Part shown: positions 296 to 23,796 of the stretch, piece by piece | How positions within the stretch are numbered: the first letter of the stretch is position 1 | Layout of the letters: each line of letters begins with the position of its first letter | Assembly (NCBI GenBank): GCA_029975555.1 | Contig: JARKOY010000032.1 | Span: forward strand, 1 to 50,263 | DNA from: Spirochaetia bacterium | GTDB lineage: Bacteria > Spirochaetota > Spirochaetia > Treponematales > Rectinemataceae | DNA: 50,263 nucleotides | Direction: 5' to 3' | The notes under the pieces: generated by a model | Database searches by the model: none | What the model was told of the DNA's origin: nothing | What the model saw: only the letters and a program-made list of their open reading frames with translations | Position numbers and translations under genes: made by a program

Positions 296-1240
296 TCAGA
301 AGTCACCCACGAACAGCACTTCCGGTTCGAGATGCCACCCCCTCGCCGCCAACACCACCTCCTGGGCGTGCTCGATGAGCGCCCTCATGTCGCGGGCCGT
401 TGCGGCACCCAGATTGATGAAGATGTTCGCGTGCCAAGGCGAGATTGCGGCGTCGCCGATTCTGTAGCCGCGAAGGCCGAGCTCGTGCAAGATTTTGCCT
501 GTTGGTTCGCCGAAAACTCTGTTGTTCTTGAACATCGATCCTGCGCTCGGGTAATCGAAGTGGTGCTTCTGCATGCGGTCGGCCAGCCGTGCTCGCATGC
601 GCGCGGCAATTGCCTGAGGATTGTCGGGCGTGAGAACGAAGGTGGCGGCGCCGACGGTCGAACCTGCCAGCCCTTCGCCCGGCATGAAGGGAGAGCGCTT
701 GTAGGACCATGGGAGCGAGGCCGCCGAAACCTTCTGGATGGAGCCTAGTGTGTCGAGGTGCCATATCTCATCGACGTGCAAAGATATCTCGTCGTCGTAG
801 CAGCGCGCGTTCATGTAGATTGCACCTCCTACGCTGCCCGGCATGCCGTAAAAATTCTCGAGCCCGGAGAGTCCGCGCGCGAGGGCTTCCTCGCAGAGCA
901 AGGACACCGAGGCGCCGCACGCCGCATAGAGCAAGACGCGGCCCCCCTTCAGGCCAGAAACAGGGTATATGGAGGAAATAAGCCCTGTGTCGATCACAGC
1001 CCCGCGGATTCCCTTGTCTCCCACAAGAATATTGGCCCCACCGCCGAGGAGGAAGACGGGGATGGCTGCATTCTCCAACCTTCGGAGCACTTCGGCAAGC
1101 GCTCGAATGGACCGGGGCCTCACGTAGAGGTCGGCCGGTCCGCCGATCTTGAACGTGGTGTGTGCCCGCATGGACTCGCTGAGTGCGACGGAACATTGCT
1201 CAGTATTGATTTTTTGGGCAATTTGCCATAGCTTTTCCAT
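296..1240 (-). CDS. murB: UDP-N-acetylenolpyruvoylglucosamine reductase MurB
   Basis: This FAD enzyme makes UDP-N-acetylmuramate from the enolpyruvyl intermediate using NADPH, in the cytoplasmic stage of peptidoglycan synthesis. Visible in the 314 residues: the N-terminal [11 protein letters not shown] segment, the FAD-binding [10 protein letters not shown] loop, [14 protein letters not shown], the YKRSPF segment, the catalytic-serine block SAGSMFKN, and the C-terminal LEPEV with the active-site Glu. Length and motif order are normal and nothing is missing. The start ATG at 1238-1240 has no clear Shine-Dalgarno sequence; instead a promoter (TTGCCT, 17 bp, GATACT) ends 8 nt upstream, so the mRNA may be leaderless. 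It is divergent from cysS. Confidence 0.95.
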
Positions 1241-16474: not shown

Positions 16475-16957
16475 ATGAGACTCTGGACCATTCACCCCAA
16501 ATATCTCGACCAAAAGGGGCTGGTGGCGCTGTGGAGAGAAGGTCTTCTCGCGCAAAAAGTGCTGGAAGGTGCGACGAGAGGATATAGGAATCATCCTCAG
16601 CTGATACGATTTAAGACATCTTCTGATCCAATGGCCGCAATACATCGGTATTTGCTCGAGGTATACAGAGAAGCGCAGGCAAGGGGATATTCATTCGATA
16701 AGAGCAAGATTGGGGATGACGCCACAGACCTTGAAAAGAAAATAGAAGTGACGATCGGGCAAGTGCAGTATGAACACAAGTTGTTACAACAGAAGATGAT
16801 GCGACGAGACAAGGAGCGATCCCTTCGGCTTCGGGAGGAGAAAGCTCCGTGCGTCAACGCGGTATTTACCGTTGTAGAAGGTGGGGTAGAGGCCTGGGAG
16901 CACGTGAAAGAAGAAGTTGCCGCCATGGGCGGCGTGTCCTTCAGCGCCTTCGAATGA
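16475..16957 (+). CDS. Pyrimidine-dimer DNA glycosylase-type protein (endonuclease V family)
   Basis: The 160 residues begin MRLWTIHPKYLDQKGLVALW and continue REGLLAQKVLEGATRGYRNHPQLIRF, the hallmark of the small family around T4 endonuclease V, which excises UV-induced cyclobutane dimers by N-terminal amine chemistry. The Arg/His-rich block (GYRNHPQL) and the C-terminal part with a Lys/Arg-rich helix are as expected. ATG 16475 is preferred to in-frame starts further upstream because the family begins at MRLW. Its 3' end overlaps the convergent hisD end by 17 bp. Catalytic activity is assumed from the family, since members in bacteria are mostly uncharacterised. Confidence 0.75.
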   Translation: MRLWTIHPKYLDQKGLVALWREGLLAQKVLEGATRGYRNHPQLIRFKTSSDPMAAIHRYLLEVYREAQARGYSFDKSKIGDDATDLEKKIEVTIGQVQYEHKLLQQKMMRRDKERSLRLREEKAPCVNAVFTVVEGGVEAWEHVKEEVAAMGGVSFSAFE

Positions 16958-18200
16958 GGGCCGCCCTCGCGTGGGCCTCGAGGCCCTCTAGACGGGCGAA
17001 GGCGGCGGTGTCCTCGATGAGCGTGGAAGGGTTCTCGATCGAAAGCCAGGTCCGAGCCCGCAGAAAGTGCAGGACCGACAGGCCGGCCGCAAACCTCGAC
17101 GCTCCGCCCGTGGGAAGTGTGTGGTTCGGCCCTGCGCCGTAGTCGCCGAAGACCTCGGCCGACCCAGCGCCGAGGAAGATGGCCCCGGCATTTCTGACGC
17201 TTTTGGCAAGCTCGGCGGGGTTGGCCGTGGCGAGTTCGAGATGTTCGGGCGCGCAGCGGTTGACGCCGAGGACGGCGCGCTCAAGGTCGGGCTCCACGCA
17301 GCAGAAGCCGTTGTCGAGGGCCGCGCGGGCGATGCTGTGGTTCGGCTCGGGCAGGGCGGCGAGCTGTACGGAGAGTTCTTCTTCGATTTGCTCTGCCAGC
17401 GTTTCGTCCGTGACGATGAGGGCTGGCACGGCGTCGGGCGAGTGCTCGGCCTGTGCGAGGAGGTCGGCGGCGACCACTTCCGGCTGGGCAGTGTCGTCGG
17501 CGATGACGAGGAGCTCCGAGGGGCCTGCGGGCGCCTCGGTTCCGACGAGGCCGAAGAGGAGGCGCTTGGCGGCGGCGACGTACTTGCCGCCCGGGCCGAC
17601 GATCACGTCGCACCTCGGCACGGCGACGCCGAAGGCGAGCGCGGCCACCGCGTGGGCGCCGCCGCAGCGGAGAAAGCCGTTTGCGCCTGCGAGCCAGGCA
17701 GCGGCCAACGTTTCCCGGGTGGGCTTGGGCCCCGCGCACCAGACTTCTTCGACGCCCGCGGCCTTGGCCGGCACCACGGTCATGATCGCGCTGGAGGGGA
17801 GGGGAAAGGCGCCGCCCGGGACGTAACAGCCGGCGCGCGCCACGGGCACGAACTCGTGCCCGTGGCGGCCGCCCGGTGCCGGCAGCGCGAGGGGGGCAAG
17901 GCAGGCCCGCTGGGCGGCCGCAAAGGCCGCGACGCGGCCTTTGGCGCGCGCAAAAAGCTCGGCGGTCGTGCGGGGCAGCGAATCGTAGGCCGCCTTCATC
18001 TCGTCGCGGGAGATGAGGAACGGCTCATCCGTGGAGAGCCCGTCGAACTTCACCGCCCATTCCCTGAGCGCCGCCTCTTTCCCCTTGCGGACCGCGTCGA
18101 TTGCAGATAACGCGACGGCATCGACCGTGGGGTCGAAGAGCCGCTGGGACGGCTCTGGAATTTCATCGATCGTAATTCTTCTTAGTGTATGCTTTTCCAT
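16941..18200 (-). CDS. hisD: Histidinol dehydrogenase
   Basis: This zinc enzyme oxidises histidinol to histidine in two NAD-dependent steps, the last reaction of the pathway. The 419 residues show GCYVPGGAFPLPSSAIM, the DVIVGPGGKYVA nucleotide segment, the Zn ligands in LLAQAEHSPDA and GDYGAGPNHTLPTGG, and the catalytic Glu-His in RCAPEHLELA; a final His near the C-terminus (GLEAHARA) completes the set. Its start overlaps the end of the hisA-IE gene by 19 bp, so it is the last gene of the operon, although in many bacteria hisD is near the front. Confidence 0.95.
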   Translation of the reverse strand: MEKHTLRRITIDEIPEPSQRLFDPTVDAVALSAIDAVRKGKEAALREWAVKFDGLSTDEPFLISRDEMKAAYDSLPRTTAELFARAKGRVAAFAAAQRACLAPLALPAPGGRHGHEFVPVARAGCYVPGGAFPLPSSAIMTVVPAKAAGVEEVWCAGPKPTRETLAAAWLAGANGFLRCGGAHAVAALAFGVAVPRCDVIVGPGGKYVAAAKRLLFGLVGTEAPAGPSELLVIADDTAQPEVVAADLLAQAEHSPDAVPALIVTDETLAEQIEEELSVQLAALPEPNHSIARAALDNGFCCVEPDLERAVLGVNRCAPEHLELATANPAELAKSVRNAGAIFLGAGSAEVFGDYGAGPNHTLPTGGASRFAAGLSVLHFLRARTWLSIENPSTLIEDTAAFARLEGLEAHARAALIRRR

Positions 18201-19495
18201 TCTGTCGCACCTTCCGGACCATCAAAGCCGGGCTTCGCGTTGCCGCCCCTGCGCGTGACGCGGAGCGAGCGCCGCTCGAGCTCTGCCTCGATGTCCTCGA
18301 GGCTTCCTCCCATGCTGATCGTCTTCACGAGCGCGAAGTACATGAGGTCCGCCGCCTCCGCCACGGCCTCCTCCTTCGTCTTCGACTGCGCGAGCTCCTC
18401 CGCCTCTTCCCGCAGTTTGGACGCGAGGAGCGCCTCGTCGGAGAAGAGCCTGCGCGTGTAGGAGCCAGGCGGCGCATCCTTCAGGCGGTGCGCGATGGTG
18501 CGGTTCAGTTTTTCGAGCCCGTAGCCGTCGTCGAAGCACGTGCGCCGCCCCAGGTGGCAGAAGCCCGCGCCGTTCTGGCGCACGGTGAAGCGTATGGCGT
18601 CGCGGTCGCAGTCGAGATCGGCGCGCAGGAGCCTCTGGTCGTTGCCTGAGCTTTCTCCCTTGACCCACAGGCCCCTGGACCGCGAGTGGTAGGTCCCTTT
18701 CCCTGTTTCCAGGGCGAGCTTCAGGCTTTCTCGGCTGGAATACACTAGCCCCAAGAGCTTTCCCGACTCGTCGCACACGAGGGTGGGCCACAGGCCGTCA
18801 GGCCTGTCCGTCTTGAGCGGTGCCGCGAAGGCGTCGGCGAGGGAAAGGTCCCCCAGGACAAGCGAGGTGCCCGCCTGGATGTCCGCGCCCAACGCGTCGA
18901 GGGCGGCGATGTCGGCGACGCCGCGCGCGCCTCCGGCTGCGCCGCCTGCAAAGGTGAATTTCCTGTCTGGCGCCCGCGCGATGAGGGCCTTGGCCCGCTC
19001 TAGGTCGATGCCGCACTGGTCTCCCTCGGTTTCGATGAAGGTGACCAGAAACCCTGCCACATAGGGCGCGAGCGCGCTGATCGCTTCCCCCACCGTGCCT
19101 TCGCGTGGCTTTGTCCACCCCTCGACCATGATCGTCTCGTTGCGGCTGTCGAGCGCGGCGATGAGGCGCTCGCGCGGCAGCTTTGCGAGGAATTCGGGCC
19201 TGGCCGCCGTGCCGAGCATGATGTAGCGCGCACCGGCGTTGAGGTATTCGGTGGCGAGTTCCGGCGTGCGGATGCCTCCCCCGACGCGCACACGGTATGT
19301 TCTGCACAGGGAGAGGATGAGCTCTCGATTCGTGCCCCTGCCCATGGCGGCATCCAGGTCCACGACCGCAAATTCTCCGATGCGGGAATAGCGCTCCGCA
19401 AGTTCAAGGGGGCTGCCTGCGTCCAGGGGGGGCTGTTTGCCGCCTCGGAGCTGCACGGCCCTGCCGTTCATGATGTCGATGCTCGGTACGATCAT
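18182..19495 (-). CDS. hisAIE: HisA-HisI-HisE trifunctional fusion
   Basis: One 437-residue frame carries three consecutive histidine steps. Residues 1-240 are HisA (ProFAR isomerase barrel): MIVPSIDIMNGRAVQLRGG with the catalytic Asp, VDLDAAMG, second Asp in IAALDSRNETIMVEGW, LTFAGGAAGG. Residues about 245-340 are HisI (PRA-CH): DGLWPTLVCDE, GLWVKGESSGNDQ, metal motif DCDRDA (about 295) and CHLGRRTCF (about 316). Residues about 345-437 are HisE (PRA-PH): YTRRLF, LREEAEELAQSKTKEEAVAEAADLMY with the acidic metal site. No stop or frame change separates the parts. ATG 19495 overlaps the hisF stop as ATGA. HisI-HisE fusions are common; HisA joined in front is unusual. Confidence 0.92.
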   Translation of the reverse strand: MIVPSIDIMNGRAVQLRGGKQPPLDAGSPLELAERYSRIGEFAVVDLDAAMGRGTNRELILSLCRTYRVRVGGGIRTPELATEYLNAGARYIMLGTAARPEFLAKLPRERLIAALDSRNETIMVEGWTKPREGTVGEAISALAPYVAGFLVTFIETEGDQCGIDLERAKALIARAPDRKFTFAGGAAGGARGVADIAALDALGADIQAGTSLVLGDLSLADAFAAPLKTDRPDGLWPTLVCDESGKLLGLVYSSRESLKLALETGKGTYHSRSRGLWVKGESSGNDQRLLRADLDCDRDAIRFTVRQNGAGFCHLGRRTCFDDGYGLEKLNRTIAHRLKDAPPGSYTRRLFSDEALLASKLREEAEELAQSKTKEEAVAEAADLMYFALVKTISMGGSLEDIEAELERRSLRVTRRGGNAKPGFDGPEGATEWKSIH

Positions 19496-20259
19496 AGCCT
19501 GACCTCCACATTGTGCTCTGCAAGATAATTCTTTATTTCTGAAATAGAGAGTTCTCCGCGGTGGAAAATCCCCGCGGCGAGGAGGGCGGAGGCGCCGCTC
19601 TGGTATCCCTCCAGAAAGTGTTCCAGCCTGGATGCACCTCCGGAGGCGACCACGGGGATGCCGACAGCGCGCGCGACGAGGCGTAGGAGCGTGCACTCGT
19701 AGCCGAGGCTCGTGCCGTCTCTGTCGATCGAGGTGAGGAGTATTTCGCCCGCACCCCGGCTGGCCACCTCTTTCGCCCAGGCCACTGCGTCGAGCCCCGT
19801 CGACACGGCGCCTGCTGCGATCTTCACCTCGTAGCCCGAGGGCATTGCGCCGTTCTGTGCCGCATCGATAGCCACCACCGCGCACTGTACGCCGAACTGG
19901 CTCGCGATGTCGCCTATGATCTTCGGGGTGCGGACTGCGGCGCTGTTGACCGACACGCGGTCAGCTCCGGAATCGAGGAGGCGCGCGGCATCGTCGATCG
20001 TCGCGATGCCGCCGCCCACGGTGATGGGGATGGCGATGCCGCGCCGAATGCGCGCCACCTCCTTGGCCATGGTTTTTCTGCCCTCCACGGTGGCGCTGAT
20101 GTCGAGGAAGGTGAGCTCGTCTGCGCCCTGTTCTTCGTAGAGGCGCGCGCGCTCGAGGGGGTCGCCCGAGTCGACGAGGTGCTCGAACTGCACGCCCTTG
20201 ACCACGCGTCCGTCTTTGAAGTCGAGGCATGGGATGATTCTGACCGCAAGTCCGCTCAT
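19492..20259 (-). CDS. hisF: Imidazole glycerol-phosphate synthase cyclase subunit
   Basis: A (beta/alpha)8 barrel that, with HisH, makes imidazole glycerol phosphate and AICAR from PRFAR. The 255 residues show the catalytic Asp in IIPCLDFKDGRVVKG, GADELTFLDISAT, the PITVGGGI phosphate loop, GADRVSVNSAAV, the second Asp in VVAIDAAQNG, and DRDGTSLGYE. ATG 20259 overlaps the hisH stop (ATGA) and has AAGGAGGAG upstream. An in-frame start 33 bp further up is not used because MSGLAVRIIPCLD is the family beginning. Confidence 0.96.
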   Translation of the reverse strand: MSGLAVRIIPCLDFKDGRVVKGVQFEHLVDSGDPLERARLYEEQGADELTFLDISATVEGRKTMAKEVARIRRGIAIPITVGGGIATIDDAARLLDSGADRVSVNSAAVRTPKIIGDIASQFGVQCAVVAIDAAQNGAMPSGYEVKIAAGAVSTGLDAVAWAKEVASRGAGEILLTSIDRDGTSLGYECTLLRLVARAVGIPVVASGGASRLEHFLEGYQSGASALLAAGIFHRGELSISEIKNYLAEHNVEVRL

Positions 20260-20948
20260 ACACTCCTCCTTGCGCCGTTGAGATCGAGCCACCGGGCGAA
20301 GAGCTGTGTGCCGAAGGCACCCGACAATTCAGGATGAAATTGACAGAGGAGAAGGGATGGTCTGCCGTTCCGCCACGCCTCGAGGGCGGAGACGAAGGGA
20401 CTGCCGTAGGTGGTGGTGGCTGCGGCGATGGAGTCGAAGCTCCGAGCACCCGAAACCCCATTCACACTGAGTTCTGGGCGCGCGCCCGAGGCAGCGGCGC
20501 CGAGTCCGTAGCTGTTCGCGAAATAGACCCAGCCTGGCTGCAGAAGGCGGGCTTCAGGCTCAGGTTCGAGCCTGTTCCAGCCGAGTTGGGGTAAAGCAAG
20601 CCCACCTTCCAGCCTGCGCACCGTTCCCTTGAAGATGCCGAGGCCCTTCACGCCCTCGGATTCCTCGCTTGCCTCGAAGAAGAGCTGCATGCCGAGGCAG
20701 ATGCCCGCGGTGGGCAGGCCCTCGGCGACGCGGCGCTTGAGCGCGGTGTCGAGCCCCTCTCCCTTCAGCTTCTGCATGGCGGGGCCGAAGGCGCCGACGC
20801 CGGGCAGAATGACGGCCCGCGCGCAGGCCACGTGTTCCGGGGTCGCGCTGACGACGGGCTCCATGCCGAGGCGCTCCGCGAGCGCGCGCACGGAGGCGAG
20901 GTTCGCGACGCCCGTCTCCACGATGACGAGCTGTGGTCTCTCGCTCAT
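20256..20948 (-). CDS. hisH: Imidazole glycerol-phosphate synthase glutaminase subunit
   Basis: This class I glutamine amidotransferase feeds ammonia to HisF. The 230 residues contain VILPGVGAFGPAM, the nucleophile in AGICLGMQLFFE, PQLGWN, and the His-Glu pair in QFHPELSG, so the triad is complete. It is somewhat longer than the usual 200-210 residues because of a loop around residues 150-190 (GLGAAASGARPELSVNGVSGA) that is low-complexity. Start and stop overlap neighbours by 4 bp on both sides. Confidence 0.95.
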   Translation of the reverse strand: MSERPQLVIVETGVANLASVRALAERLGMEPVVSATPEHVACARAVILPGVGAFGPAMQKLKGEGLDTALKRRVAEGLPTAGICLGMQLFFEASEESEGVKGLGIFKGTVRRLEGGLALPQLGWNRLEPEPEARLLQPGWVYFANSYGLGAAASGARPELSVNGVSGARSFDSIAAATTTYGSPFVSALEAWRNGRPSLLLCQFHPELSGAFGTQLFARWLDLNGARRSV

Positions 20949-21562
20949 AGACCGGCCCCTTGCACATCGATGGCCGCCTCGCCCTTCGTGCTGCTGCTCG
21001 CTGCACCGCCCCGGGGCTCCAGGGCCATCCTGAGGGCGAGCGCCGCGGCTTTGAAGAGTGCCTCGGCCCTATGGTGGTCGTTCTCTCCGCGCAGGATGTC
21101 GAGGTGCAGCGTGAGGCCTGCGTTCGCCGCGAAGCTCTGAAAGAAGTGCGCGATGTTGCAGGTCGAGAGCATGCCGAGCGATGGTGCAGCGAAGCTGCCT
21201 TCGAAGACGCAGCAGCTGCGCCCCGAGATGTCGACCACGGCCCGCGCGAGGGCCTCGTCCATGGGCGCATAGGCGTAGCCGAAGCGCGCGCGGCCTGTTC
21301 CAGAAGGCACGAGCTTCGCAAAGGCCTTTCCCAGCGCGATGGCCACATCCTCGACGCTGTGGTGATCGTCGACGTCGAGGTCTCCCTTGCAGGTTACGGA
21401 CAAGCTCCAGCCCGCGTGAAAGGCGAGCTGCGTGAGCATGTGGTTGAAAAATCCGAGGCCGGTGTCGACCTCGATCGGCCCAGGTTCGAAGGTGAGGGAA
21501 AGGGAAACGTCCGTCTCCTTCGTCCTGCGCCGGACGCCTGCCGTTTCTTTTTGAGTCGTCAT
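20945..21562 (-). CDS. hisB: Imidazoleglycerol-phosphate dehydratase
   Basis: This manganese enzyme dehydrates IGP to imidazole-acetol phosphate. The 205 residues include TGLGFFNHMLTQLAFHAGW, the metal motif DVDDHHSVEDVAIALG, GYAYAPMDEALARAVVDISGR and the second motif ENDHHRAEALFKAAALAL. It is the monofunctional form: no HAD-type histidinol-phosphatase domain is fused, and no histidinol-phosphatase gene is found elsewhere in the operon. It overlaps hisC and hisH by 4 bp each. Confidence 0.96.
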   Translation of the reverse strand: MTTQKETAGVRRRTKETDVSLSLTFEPGPIEVDTGLGFFNHMLTQLAFHAGWSLSVTCKGDLDVDDHHSVEDVAIALGKAFAKLVPSGTGRARFGYAYAPMDEALARAVVDISGRSCCVFEGSFAAPSLGMLSTCNIAHFFQSFAANAGLTLHLDILRGENDHHRAEALFKAAALALRMALEPRGGAASSSTKGEAAIDVQGAGL

Positions 21563-22587
21563 GTGCGTGCCTCCTTGGTCATCCCCATGGTGTTCCCCAC
21601 GGAGGTGAGGGCCTCCGTGAGCTGGGTGAATTCCCTTGCCTCGCCCGGCACGGTGATCCGCACGAGGTTCTCATAGCCAAGCTTTCCCTGCCAGGTTCTC
21701 ACGAATATCTCTTTTTCACGCAACGCCCTGGCGAACGCCTGTGCCTCCTCTGTCTTGAGGAGTACGAAATTTGCCTCGCTCTCGGAGACGAGAAAGCCCA
21801 TGCCTTTCAGGAAGGAGCTCAGTTCTCGCACCTCGCGCCTGATCTCGTCGACGAAGGCTCTCACGATTTTTGCATCGAGGGCGAGCGCGCGCCGCCCCGC
21901 CTCAATGGCTGAGCTCGACAGCGAGAAGGGTGGCCCCGCCTCCGCGAGTCGCGCGATGACGCCTTCCATCCGGGGATTGCCCGCGATGTACCCGATGCGG
22001 AAGCCCGCGAGTCCCCTCGATTTCGAAAAACTCCCCGACACGAGGACGTTCGGAAAGGCGAAGGCATCGGTGGGCGTCGCGCCATTTGGGGAGAAATCCT
22101 CGTAGGTTGCGTCAAAAATGAATATAGTCCCGGACTCGCGGCAGGCCGCGGCGATCTGTGCAAGGTCCGCCCGGCTGAGCACGCAGCCCGAAGGATTGTC
22201 CGGGCTCGCGAGGATAAGGAGCTGCGGACGTTTTTCTTCAAGGACTCTGCAGATTTCTTCTAAAGGGAAGGGGCCGAAGGGGTCTTTGGGGATCGATTCA
22301 TACATCGCAAAGGAGCGCTGCGCCGCGGCGAGGAATTCGACGAAGCCTGGGTGGGTGCTCATCACAAGGCCGCCAGGGCCTGCGAGCGTCCGGACGGCGC
22401 GGTCGATCGCATCGTCGGCGCCGGCGGTGGCGAGCACGCACGAAGCGGGCAACCCAAGCCGCGCCGCGAGGGGCTCTTCCAAGAGACTCCGCACGGGGTA
22501 GCGGCGGGCGATTTCTGGGCTCAGTATCTGCCGCAGGTCGTTTTCCGAGAGAAGACAGCGGCCCTCGTTGGCATCGAGTCGAAGCAT
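21559..22587 (-). CDS. hisC: Histidinol-phosphate aminotransferase
   Basis: A fold-type I PLP aminotransferase that converts imidazole-acetol phosphate to histidinol phosphate with glutamate. The 342 residues show the N-terminal LDANEG, LATAGADDAID, SPDNPSGCVLS, IFDATYEDF, and the PLP lysine in SGSFSKSRGLAGFRIGY, with the C-terminal LVRITVPGE Arg. The start ATG 22587 has an AAGGAGG box and lies 10 bp behind hisG. Confidence 0.93.
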   Translation of the reverse strand: MLRLDANEGRCLLSENDLRQILSPEIARRYPVRSLLEEPLAARLGLPASCVLATAGADDAIDRAVRTLAGPGGLVMSTHPGFVEFLAAAQRSFAMYESIPKDPFGPFPLEEICRVLEEKRPQLLILASPDNPSGCVLSRADLAQIAAACRESGTIFIFDATYEDFSPNGATPTDAFAFPNVLVSGSFSKSRGLAGFRIGYIAGNPRMEGVIARLAEAGPPFSLSSSAIEAGRRALALDAKIVRAFVDEIRREVRELSSFLKGMGFLVSESEANFVLLKTEEAQAFARALREKEIFVRTWQGKLGYENLVRITVPGEAREFTQLTEALTSVGNTMGMTKEART

Positions 22588-22597
22588 GACGACCTCC

Positions 22598-23539
22598 TTA
22601 CGGTACGAGCTGAGACATCTGGGTCACCACGATGTCCGTGCCGCCGCGCCGCTTGATTTCTGGAATGAGGCTCGCGAGCATGTCGCGGGGCGCCGCCACC
22701 TTGACCGCGAAGGCGTCTCCTCCCCCGAGCGGAGACATGGTTGGGGCTCTCAGGCAGGGGAGTATCGCGACGAGCTGCTCGAGCAGCTCGGCCGAGACGT
22801 TGACCTCGAGCATCACTCTGCGCCTCGCCTCGAGCACGGACTTAAAGAGGAGGATGAGGGAATCGGCGGCCTCCCTTTTTGCCGAAATGCGCATCGCTTC
22901 CTTTGAGGCGTATAGCCGCGTCGAGCTCGTCATGAGCGTATCGATGATCTCAAGCTTGTTGATGCGCAGCGTCGTGCCCGTCGCGCAGTTGTCGATGATG
23001 ATATCCGCATCCTCTGGAGGGAAGACCTCGGTTGCCCCGTAGGAGCGCACGAACTCCGCTCCGGGGAGGTTTTTCTCGATCCATGACTTTGCGAGGCCCT
23101 CGTACTCGGACGCGATGATGGGCGTGCGCCCGCAGGCTGCCCTGAGCGCGTTCAAATCGCCCCGCGAGGCGCGGAAGGCTGCGGCGACGGGCTCGGTCGC
23201 GGCGGCCACGATCGTCACCGGATCCAGGCCCGTATCCAAAAGTTCGACCAGGTCCGCGCCGAGTTCCTGCACCCAGTCTGCGCCCGCAAAGCCGATGTCC
23301 CGGCTTCCCGCCTGCAGCATCTCCACAATGTTCTGCGGCTTTAAGAGCTTGGCCTCGTACTCGATGCCCTTCGACACCGGGGCGTTCGCCTTGCCGTTGC
23401 CGATGCGCGGTCTGTATTCGCGCTCGTCCACCGAAACCGGAAGACCTGCGTCGTTAAACAGTTCGATCACTTTCGCCTGCATCCTGCCCTTGGGAAGGCC
23501 AATCCTGAGCTCGCACTTCCCGCCTTCGTTGTCGTTCAT
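22598..23539 (-). CDS. hisG: ATP phosphoribosyltransferase, long form
   Basis: The first, feedback-regulated enzyme of histidine synthesis: it joins PRPP and ATP. The 313 residues comprise the catalytic part (RIGLPKGRMQAKVIELF, FAGADWVQELGADLVELLDTGLDPVTIVAAA, the PRPP loop DIIIDNCATGTTLRINKLEII) and the C-terminal ACT-like HisG_C regulatory domain (VNVSAELLEQLVAILPCLRAPTMSPLG), so it is the long, HisZ-independent form. ATG 23539 has AGGAG 9 nt upstream and is the normal family start. The same frame stays open upstream to ATG 23758 through the attenuator (see the leader entry); I regard that part as leader, not HisG. Confidence 0.93.
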   Translation of the reverse strand: MNDNEGGKCELRIGLPKGRMQAKVIELFNDAGLPVSVDEREYRPRIGNGKANAPVSKGIEYEAKLLKPQNIVEMLQAGSRDIGFAGADWVQELGADLVELLDTGLDPVTIVAAATEPVAAAFRASRGDLNALRAACGRTPIIASEYEGLAKSWIEKNLPGAEFVRSYGATEVFPPEDADIIIDNCATGTTLRINKLEIIDTLMTSSTRLYASKEAMRISAKREAADSLILLFKSVLEARRRVMLEVNVSAELLEQLVAILPCLRAPTMSPLGGGDAFAVKVAAPRDMLASLIPEIKRRGGTDIVVTQMSQLVP

Positions 23540-23563
23540 CTTTATCTCCTCTTCCCGTCCTTG

Positions 23564-23713
23564 GGAAAAAAGAAACCGGCCTCTGTCTGGAGCCGGCTTT
23601 TCGGAGACATGCGCCAACGAAAAAGCCGGCCCCACGGAGCCGGCTTCGGTTTCAGATTCACCTGTCGGGCCTACACCCACACCGCACCACGGCTCCATAC
23701 GCCAAAGCCGCGA
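23564..23713 (-). promoter_or_regulatory. his operon attenuator (six alternating arms)
   Basis: Reading the minus strand from the His codons: arm A 23713-23703 (CGCGGCTTTGG), B 23696-23690 (GGAGCCG), C 23647-23636 (GAAGCCGGCTCC), D 23633-23618 (GGGGCCGGCTTTTTCG), E 23604-23589 (CCGAAAAGCCGGCTCC), F 23583-23566 (GAGGCCGGTTTC then six T). A:B, C:D and E:F can pair; so can B:C (7 exact pairs) and D:E (about 15 pairs with one bulge). E:F plus the T-run is an intrinsic terminator just before hisG. This mirrors the alternating AB/CD/EF versus BC/DE scheme known from enterobacterial his attenuation. The pairing was done by eye, with no folding energies. Confidence 0.7.
23566..23604 (-). terminator. 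Attenuator terminator (arms E:F)
   Basis: GCCGG/CCGGC-type stem with one mismatch, followed on the minus strand by TTTCTTTTTTCCC. It sits 27 bp before the hisG start, so it can only act as a conditional terminator of the his transcript. Confidence 0.7.
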
Positions 23714-23758
23714 TGATGATGGAGGACGGACGCCTTTCCGACAGATAGGGTATTCATA
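23714..23758 (-). other. Start of a his leader reading frame with three consecutive His codons
   Basis: ATG at 23758-23756, 9 nt after the -10 box, opens MNTLSVGKASVLHHH; the three CAT codons are at 23722-23714 and directly touch arm A of the attenuator. In this frame no stop occurs before hisG: it runs on in frame into hisG. In the next frame a TAG lies at 23673-23671, where a classical leader peptide would be expected to end. Either one base differs from the functional sequence, or the regulation is unusual. Listed as a leader start only. Confidence 0.6.
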
Positions 23759-23767
23759 TTAAAATTA

Positions 23768-23796
23768 TTATCTCAGTTTCTTCGGAGAGAGTCAAG
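23768..23796 (-). promoter_or_regulatory. Promoter of the his operon
   Basis: TTGACT (23796-23791), exactly 17 bp, GATAAT (23773-23768) on the minus strand. This is the closest match to the sigma-70 consensus in the window. The expected start is only about 3 nt before the leader ATG. Confidence 0.8.

Follow-up and report, generated by a model that had tools for sequence, protein, structure and literature searches.

A candidate ribosome-mediated his attenuator, conserved in Spirochaetota, with a probably leaderless leader peptide

The histidine operon and its leader region

We analysed a 50,263-nucleotide stretch of DNA from a Spirochaetia bacterium (contig JARKOY010000032.1; hereinafter the window), the reverse strand of which encodes a series of histidine biosynthesis genes. 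The order after the leader is hisG, an aminotransferase gene (hisC-like), hisB, hisH, hisF, a HisA-HisI-HisE fusion and hisD (Table 1). The fusion is a single open reading frame (ORF; 18182-19495, minus strand) with the HisA, HisI (PRA-CH) and HisE (PRA-PH) domains in series.

A sequence-only reading of the locus had described a near-consensus promoter with an ATG just downstream, three tandem CAT codons, and six complementary arms ending in a terminator before hisG; each of these could be located, the terminator hairpins being two in tandem with U-rich tails. Promoter-like sites number 2, as against 0.2 per shuffled sequence, and the leader ATG lies 9 nt after the -10 box with no Shine-Dalgarno sequence. 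Translation of the leader ORF yields a single frame of 87 nt from the ATG (23757-23755) to the TAG (23673-23671), i.e., 29 codons including the stop, and the CAT codons are in frame with both.

Table 1. Coordinates of the leader elements and the presumed controlled genes in the window
Feature	Position	Strand	Remarks
Sigma70-type promoter, TTGACT-17-GATAAT	23767..23795	-	Motif match; counterpart in 30/30 relatives
His leader peptide ORF	23671..23757	-	28 aa + TAG, MNTLSVGKASVLHHHRGFGVWSRGAVWV then stop; from translation and counterparts in relatives
Putative sensing codons, three tandem CAT (His)	23713..23721	-	His run in 30/30 relatives
Arm A (1)	23702..23718	-	Overlaps His codons; predicted to pair with B if untranslated
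Arm B (2)	23685..23698	-	Within leader ORF, just before stop; partner A or C
Arm C (3)	23635..23648	-	B:C, antiterminator; C:D, terminator 1
Arm D (4) with U-rich tail	23619..23633	-	C:D, terminator 1
Terminator 1 (C:D)	23622-23647	-	-18.6 kcal/mol
Arm E (5)	23589..23604	-	D:E possible, duplex -27.4 kcal/mol
Arm F (6) with U-tract	23566..23583	-	E:F, terminator 2
Terminator 2 (E:F)	23573-23599	-	-12.6 kcal/mol
hisG, ATP phosphoribosyltransferase	22598..23539	-	HisG + HisG_C domains; good Shine-Dalgarno upstream (GGGAAGAGGAGA)
Rest of presumed controlled operon	16941..22587	-	hisC-like, hisB, hisH, hisF, hisA-hisI-hisE fusion, hisD

Conservation and covariation of the leader

HisG was found in 46 of 59 related genomes. 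Judged by HisG, the nearest named relatives are themselves Spirochaetota, namely Spirochaetaceae/Spirochaetales MAGs and Rectinema subterraneum. We aligned 30 hisG loci from the genome itself and from its genus, family and order (Spirochaetota, Rectinema and neighbours) and read their upstream regions. Each of the 30 possesses a leader ORF that contains 3-7 His codons and ends at its own stop, and between this stop and hisG lies a G+C-rich hairpin followed by a U-rich tail (the hairpins of L017, L018, L021 and L023 were assigned by hand). The window leader, with just 3 His in 28 codons, stands at the lowest end of this range.

The pairing of the arms is likewise conserved. In the alignment of these leaders (alignment A2), 98.7% of the cells of the B:C helix are paired, with 16 double-change cells, and the C:D helix has 98.3% paired, with 39 double-change cells. 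For either helix, the scores for pairing and for covariation lie above all those obtained with shuffles or slid registers. Moreover, the same change (A-U to G-C, C-G to U-A) is carried jointly through B, C and D, the pattern that would follow from a need for C to pair with B as well as with D. The A:B pairing is kept in 79% of cells and displays no covariation, rendering the proposed no-translation state less certain. The sequence-only reading had staked its case on the conservation of the CAT run and of the compensatory pairs, and both are indeed conserved, as is the in-frame stop.

Beyond the aligned set, 15 more distant hisG loci include five with a His-run leader of up to six tandem His (L111, L113, L114, L116 and L118), four of which (all but L116) represent a more distant family with the same layout and up to 6 tandem His codons; no His-run leader was found at the other 10. 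A search of 393 Spirochaetota genomes with a covariance model of the leader (R1) returned strong matches that are his leaders, within the order only, while the weaker matches outside the order, among those inspected, are plain terminators or, once, a leucine leader. At about 1039-1160 (plus strand) of locus L139, from another Spirochaetota family, we observed a Leu-rich leader (MNQNFFTTMLLLQLLLM followed by a stop) and a terminator before a gene that, judged by eye, resembles leuA or a related synthase.

The promoter and a probable leaderless start

Counted from the first base of the -35 box, the leader start codon follows after 35-40 nt in every one of the 30 leaders (mean 38.1, s.d. 1.4); with this spacing it would lie at about +1 to +5 of the transcript. 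The mean best Shine-Dalgarno match in these leaders is 2.3 of 6 at the leader starts versus 4.9 of 6 at the hisG starts. Both the promoter spacing and the missing Shine-Dalgarno sequence are consistent with a leaderless mRNA, the transcription start itself being a prediction, and we consider the leader-peptide mRNA to be probably leaderless.

The alternative best able to survive these data is a classical attenuator transcribed from a promoter further upstream and hence endowed with a longer 5' UTR. Such an arrangement could accommodate the weak -10 boxes seen in several relatives and the predicted nature of the transcription start. However, it leaves aside the -35-like hexamer held at nearly constant distance in every aligned leader, and a similar spacing recurs among 28 named loci that we analysed beyond the window's own set (two from other Spirochaetota): in 24 of the 28 the -35 element starts 35-41 nt before the start codon, as against 21% in shuffled upstream sequence. 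The Shine-Dalgarno match at the leader start is also poor in these 28 loci. We therefore regard a longer 5' UTR as unlikely and retain the leaderless start as the favoured reading.

Computed folding and the proposed switch

The window leader folds at -94.8 kcal/mol, compared with -74.7 kcal/mol for shuffled sequences (z -4.5), and its alternative folds are mutually exclusive. To represent the positions of the ribosome, we folded the leaders either with a footprint on the His codons and the RNA extended to the end of arm C, or with a footprint at the stop codon and the RNA extended to the end of the hairpin. The first setting gives a B:C helix of 6-13 bp (mean 9.5) in 30/30 leaders, and in the second, where the ribosome covers arm B, the terminator folds in 30/30. 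Extending the stalled-state fold across all of terminator 1 lets C:D beat B:C at equilibrium in many relatives but not in the window leader; hence, in those relatives the switch would need B:C to form first, as in known systems.

In the eight leaders of the window's genus (L001-L008) the second hairpin, E:F, follows, and D can pair with E in a duplex of -17.5 to -28.4 kcal/mol, so that stalling could block both terminators. The alternation of AB/CD/EF with BC/DE advanced in the sequence-only reading is accordingly found within this genus; elsewhere in the family many leaders have a single terminator, and the six-arm layout is not general. In computed folding D:E can also out-compete C:D at equilibrium, and termination at the first hairpin would then depend on kinetics, C:D having to form ahead of the synthesis of arm E.

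These results bring together three features of amino-acid attenuators: a short ORF with tandem regulated codons and its own stop (30/30 loci), an intrinsic terminator located after the leader ORF but ahead of the first structural gene (from sequence and fold), and a mutually exclusive antiterminator upon stalling at the regulatory codons (from computed folding and covariation). We propose, with a probability of about 0.9, that transcription of hisG-hisC-hisB-hisH-hisF-hisA(IE)-hisD is controlled by the leader, which would act as a ribosome-mediated attenuator sensing charged tRNA-His. Conservation, covariation and ribosome-position folding thus lend support to the earlier suggestion that the logic of enterobacterial his attenuation operates in an unrelated lineage.

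In the proposed mechanism, transcription would start at, or a few bases from, the leader AUG, and a ribosome would initiate at the 5' end of the mRNA without a Shine-Dalgarno sequence. With ample His-tRNA, the ribosome would reach the TAG and cover arm B, allowing C:D to form as terminator 1, with E:F as a probable back-up, such that transcription ends before hisG. With scarce His-tRNA, it would stall on the CAT run and cover arm A, whereupon B would pair with C and, as we infer for the situation in vivo, D with E, blocking both terminators and permitting transcription of the operon. Should the leader not be translated, A:B would form and leave C free for the terminator.

It is also conceivable that the switch acts mainly on the translation of hisG, by masking its ribosome-binding site, rather than on termination: the minimum-energy fold of the window leader does pair a UUCCC/GGGAA stem just before the hisG Shine-Dalgarno sequence. 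Nevertheless, the U-tailed hairpins and the covarying C:D stem point to intrinsic termination, and we judge masking to be improbable as the principal mode of action.

Other readings of the leader

Given a structured leader and a terminator before an amino-acid operon, a T-box or another tRNA- or metabolite-binding riboswitch might be envisaged, with the His ORF being incidental. At the gathering score the window has no match to any Rfam family, including T-box, and the matches on the leader up to an E-value of 10 are chance-level hits to miRNA/sRNA and Thr_leader models, with no T-box or riboswitch among them. Together with the conservation of the His run and stop, and the location of the covarying arms where ribosome-mediated control needs them, this makes a riboswitch very improbable.

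The sequence-only reading had further held that the frame with the His codons lacks a stop and runs into hisG, and from this had proposed either a one-base change in the assembly or strain between the His codons and the TAG or ribosomes passing through the hairpins under a non-classical control. The claimed missing stop does not exist: the ATG, CAT run and TAG share one frame, and the suggested check in relatives shows that the His-run peptide has its own stop, before the terminator, in all 30. The slip is explained by the hisG frame, which by chance stays open upstream as far as an ATG at 23698, so that two frames were merged; as the distance from 23721 to 23539 (182) is no multiple of 3, the His codons and hisG lie in different frames, and neither frameshift, sequencing error nor read-through is necessary. 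With translation leaving it no support, we discard this reading, along with frameshift or assembly error, as having practically no chance of being right. We also note that the hisG frame (22598-23698, minus strand) is open through both terminators to that ATG, so that automatic annotation may wrongly lengthen hisG by 53 codons.

Relationship to known attenuators

The proposed attenuator resembles hisL of E. coli and Salmonella (Rfam RF00514) in its tandem His codons, short ORF, alternation of A:B/C:D/E:F with B:C/D:E and terminator before hisG. However, it differs from the latter in several respects. There is no sequence-family match: RF00514 matches 0 of the 30 relatives while matching the E. 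coli positive control, and it is absent even among the matches to the window leader up to an E-value of 10. The tandem His codons number 7 in E. coli hisL versus 3 in the window leader, and no strong promoter abuts the hisL start codon in the upstream 100 nt (the best hexamer pairs match 7 of 12 positions), whereas the window promoter does so. Finally, unlike in E. coli hisL, C:D of the window leader is itself a U-tailed hairpin, giving it two tandem terminators.

His-leader attenuators are also known among Firmicutes, in the B. cereus group, Peptostreptococcaceae and Erysipelotrichales (PMC9413887, PMC2965389). These likewise have 3-5 His codons in a row and a terminator with an antiterminator upstream of his genes; they belong to a different phylum from the window's, and the comparison made here is one of layout. 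The word Spirochaetes is absent from both papers.

With respect to the predicted position of the AUG at or near the 5' end of the mRNA, the window leader is comparable to the leaderless leader peptides trpL of S. meliloti (PMC7298713), the mycobacterial polycysteine ORFs (Canestrari 2020, a title cited in PMC13236596) and that of C. glutamicum ilvBNC (discussed in PMC11857589). Those concern Trp, Cys and branched-chain amino acids, respectively, in other phyla, in contrast to His here. In the open-licence literature we found no description of a leaderless leader peptide for histidine, nor of his attenuation in Spirochaetota, Planctomycetota or Gemmatimonadota.

Similar leaders in other phyla

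A His-rich ORF lies upstream in 52 of 80 named hisG loci, many of the 52 being from MAGs labelled Planctomycetota/Phycisphaerae, Gemmatimonadota, Deltaproteobacteria, Myxococcota and Acidobacteria. These phylum labels can be wrong, since L103 and L104 share identical leaders under different phylum names. No Rfam family matches at the gathering score in 20 loci from the set of other phyla. Even samples of hisG loci from three phyla contained a His leader ORF upstream of hisG in 6 of 25 loci from Planctomycetota, 17 of 30 from Gemmatimonadota and 4 of 29 from Myxococcota, and in 26 of the 27 leaders a -35-like hexamer precedes the start codon by 34-42 nt. At hisG loci of Planctomycetota and Myxococcota with a weaker profile match (E above 1e-90, mostly of the PKGSLQ type) the His leader is absent (0/28), which serves as an internal control against chance.

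A second hisG lineage, of the PNKGRLS type, was observed in Gemmatimonadota (L205, L207-L209 and L211-L215) with a His leader whose start codon is likewise preceded, at equal spacing, by a promoter-like hexamer. This suggests convergence or transfer of the leader.

On balance, we lean towards the view that widespread, uncatalogued, leaderless His-leader attenuators control hisG in Spirochaetota, Planctomycetota, Gemmatimonadota, Myxococcota and perhaps others. In these the peptide would start at the 5' end of the mRNA and CCGGC-type arms would switch between antiterminator and terminator; the leaders would be tied to some hisG lineages, and none was seen with hisG of the PKGSLQ type among the loci examined from these phyla.

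Implications

Taken together, the locus appears to harbour a conserved, classical ribosome-mediated his attenuator, with a leader peptide that is probably leaderless, in a lineage for which we found no earlier description of one. Leader-peptide control of histidine synthesis, which the literature we found describes for Proteobacteria, Actinobacteria and Firmicutes, would thereby also cover Spirochaetota and no fewer than three further phyla, and Rfam-based annotation misses these His leaders. The conserved, apparently leaderless start suggests that sensing ribosomes may commonly be loaded by initiation at a bare 5' end; if so, this would tie the firing of the promoter directly to the sensor.
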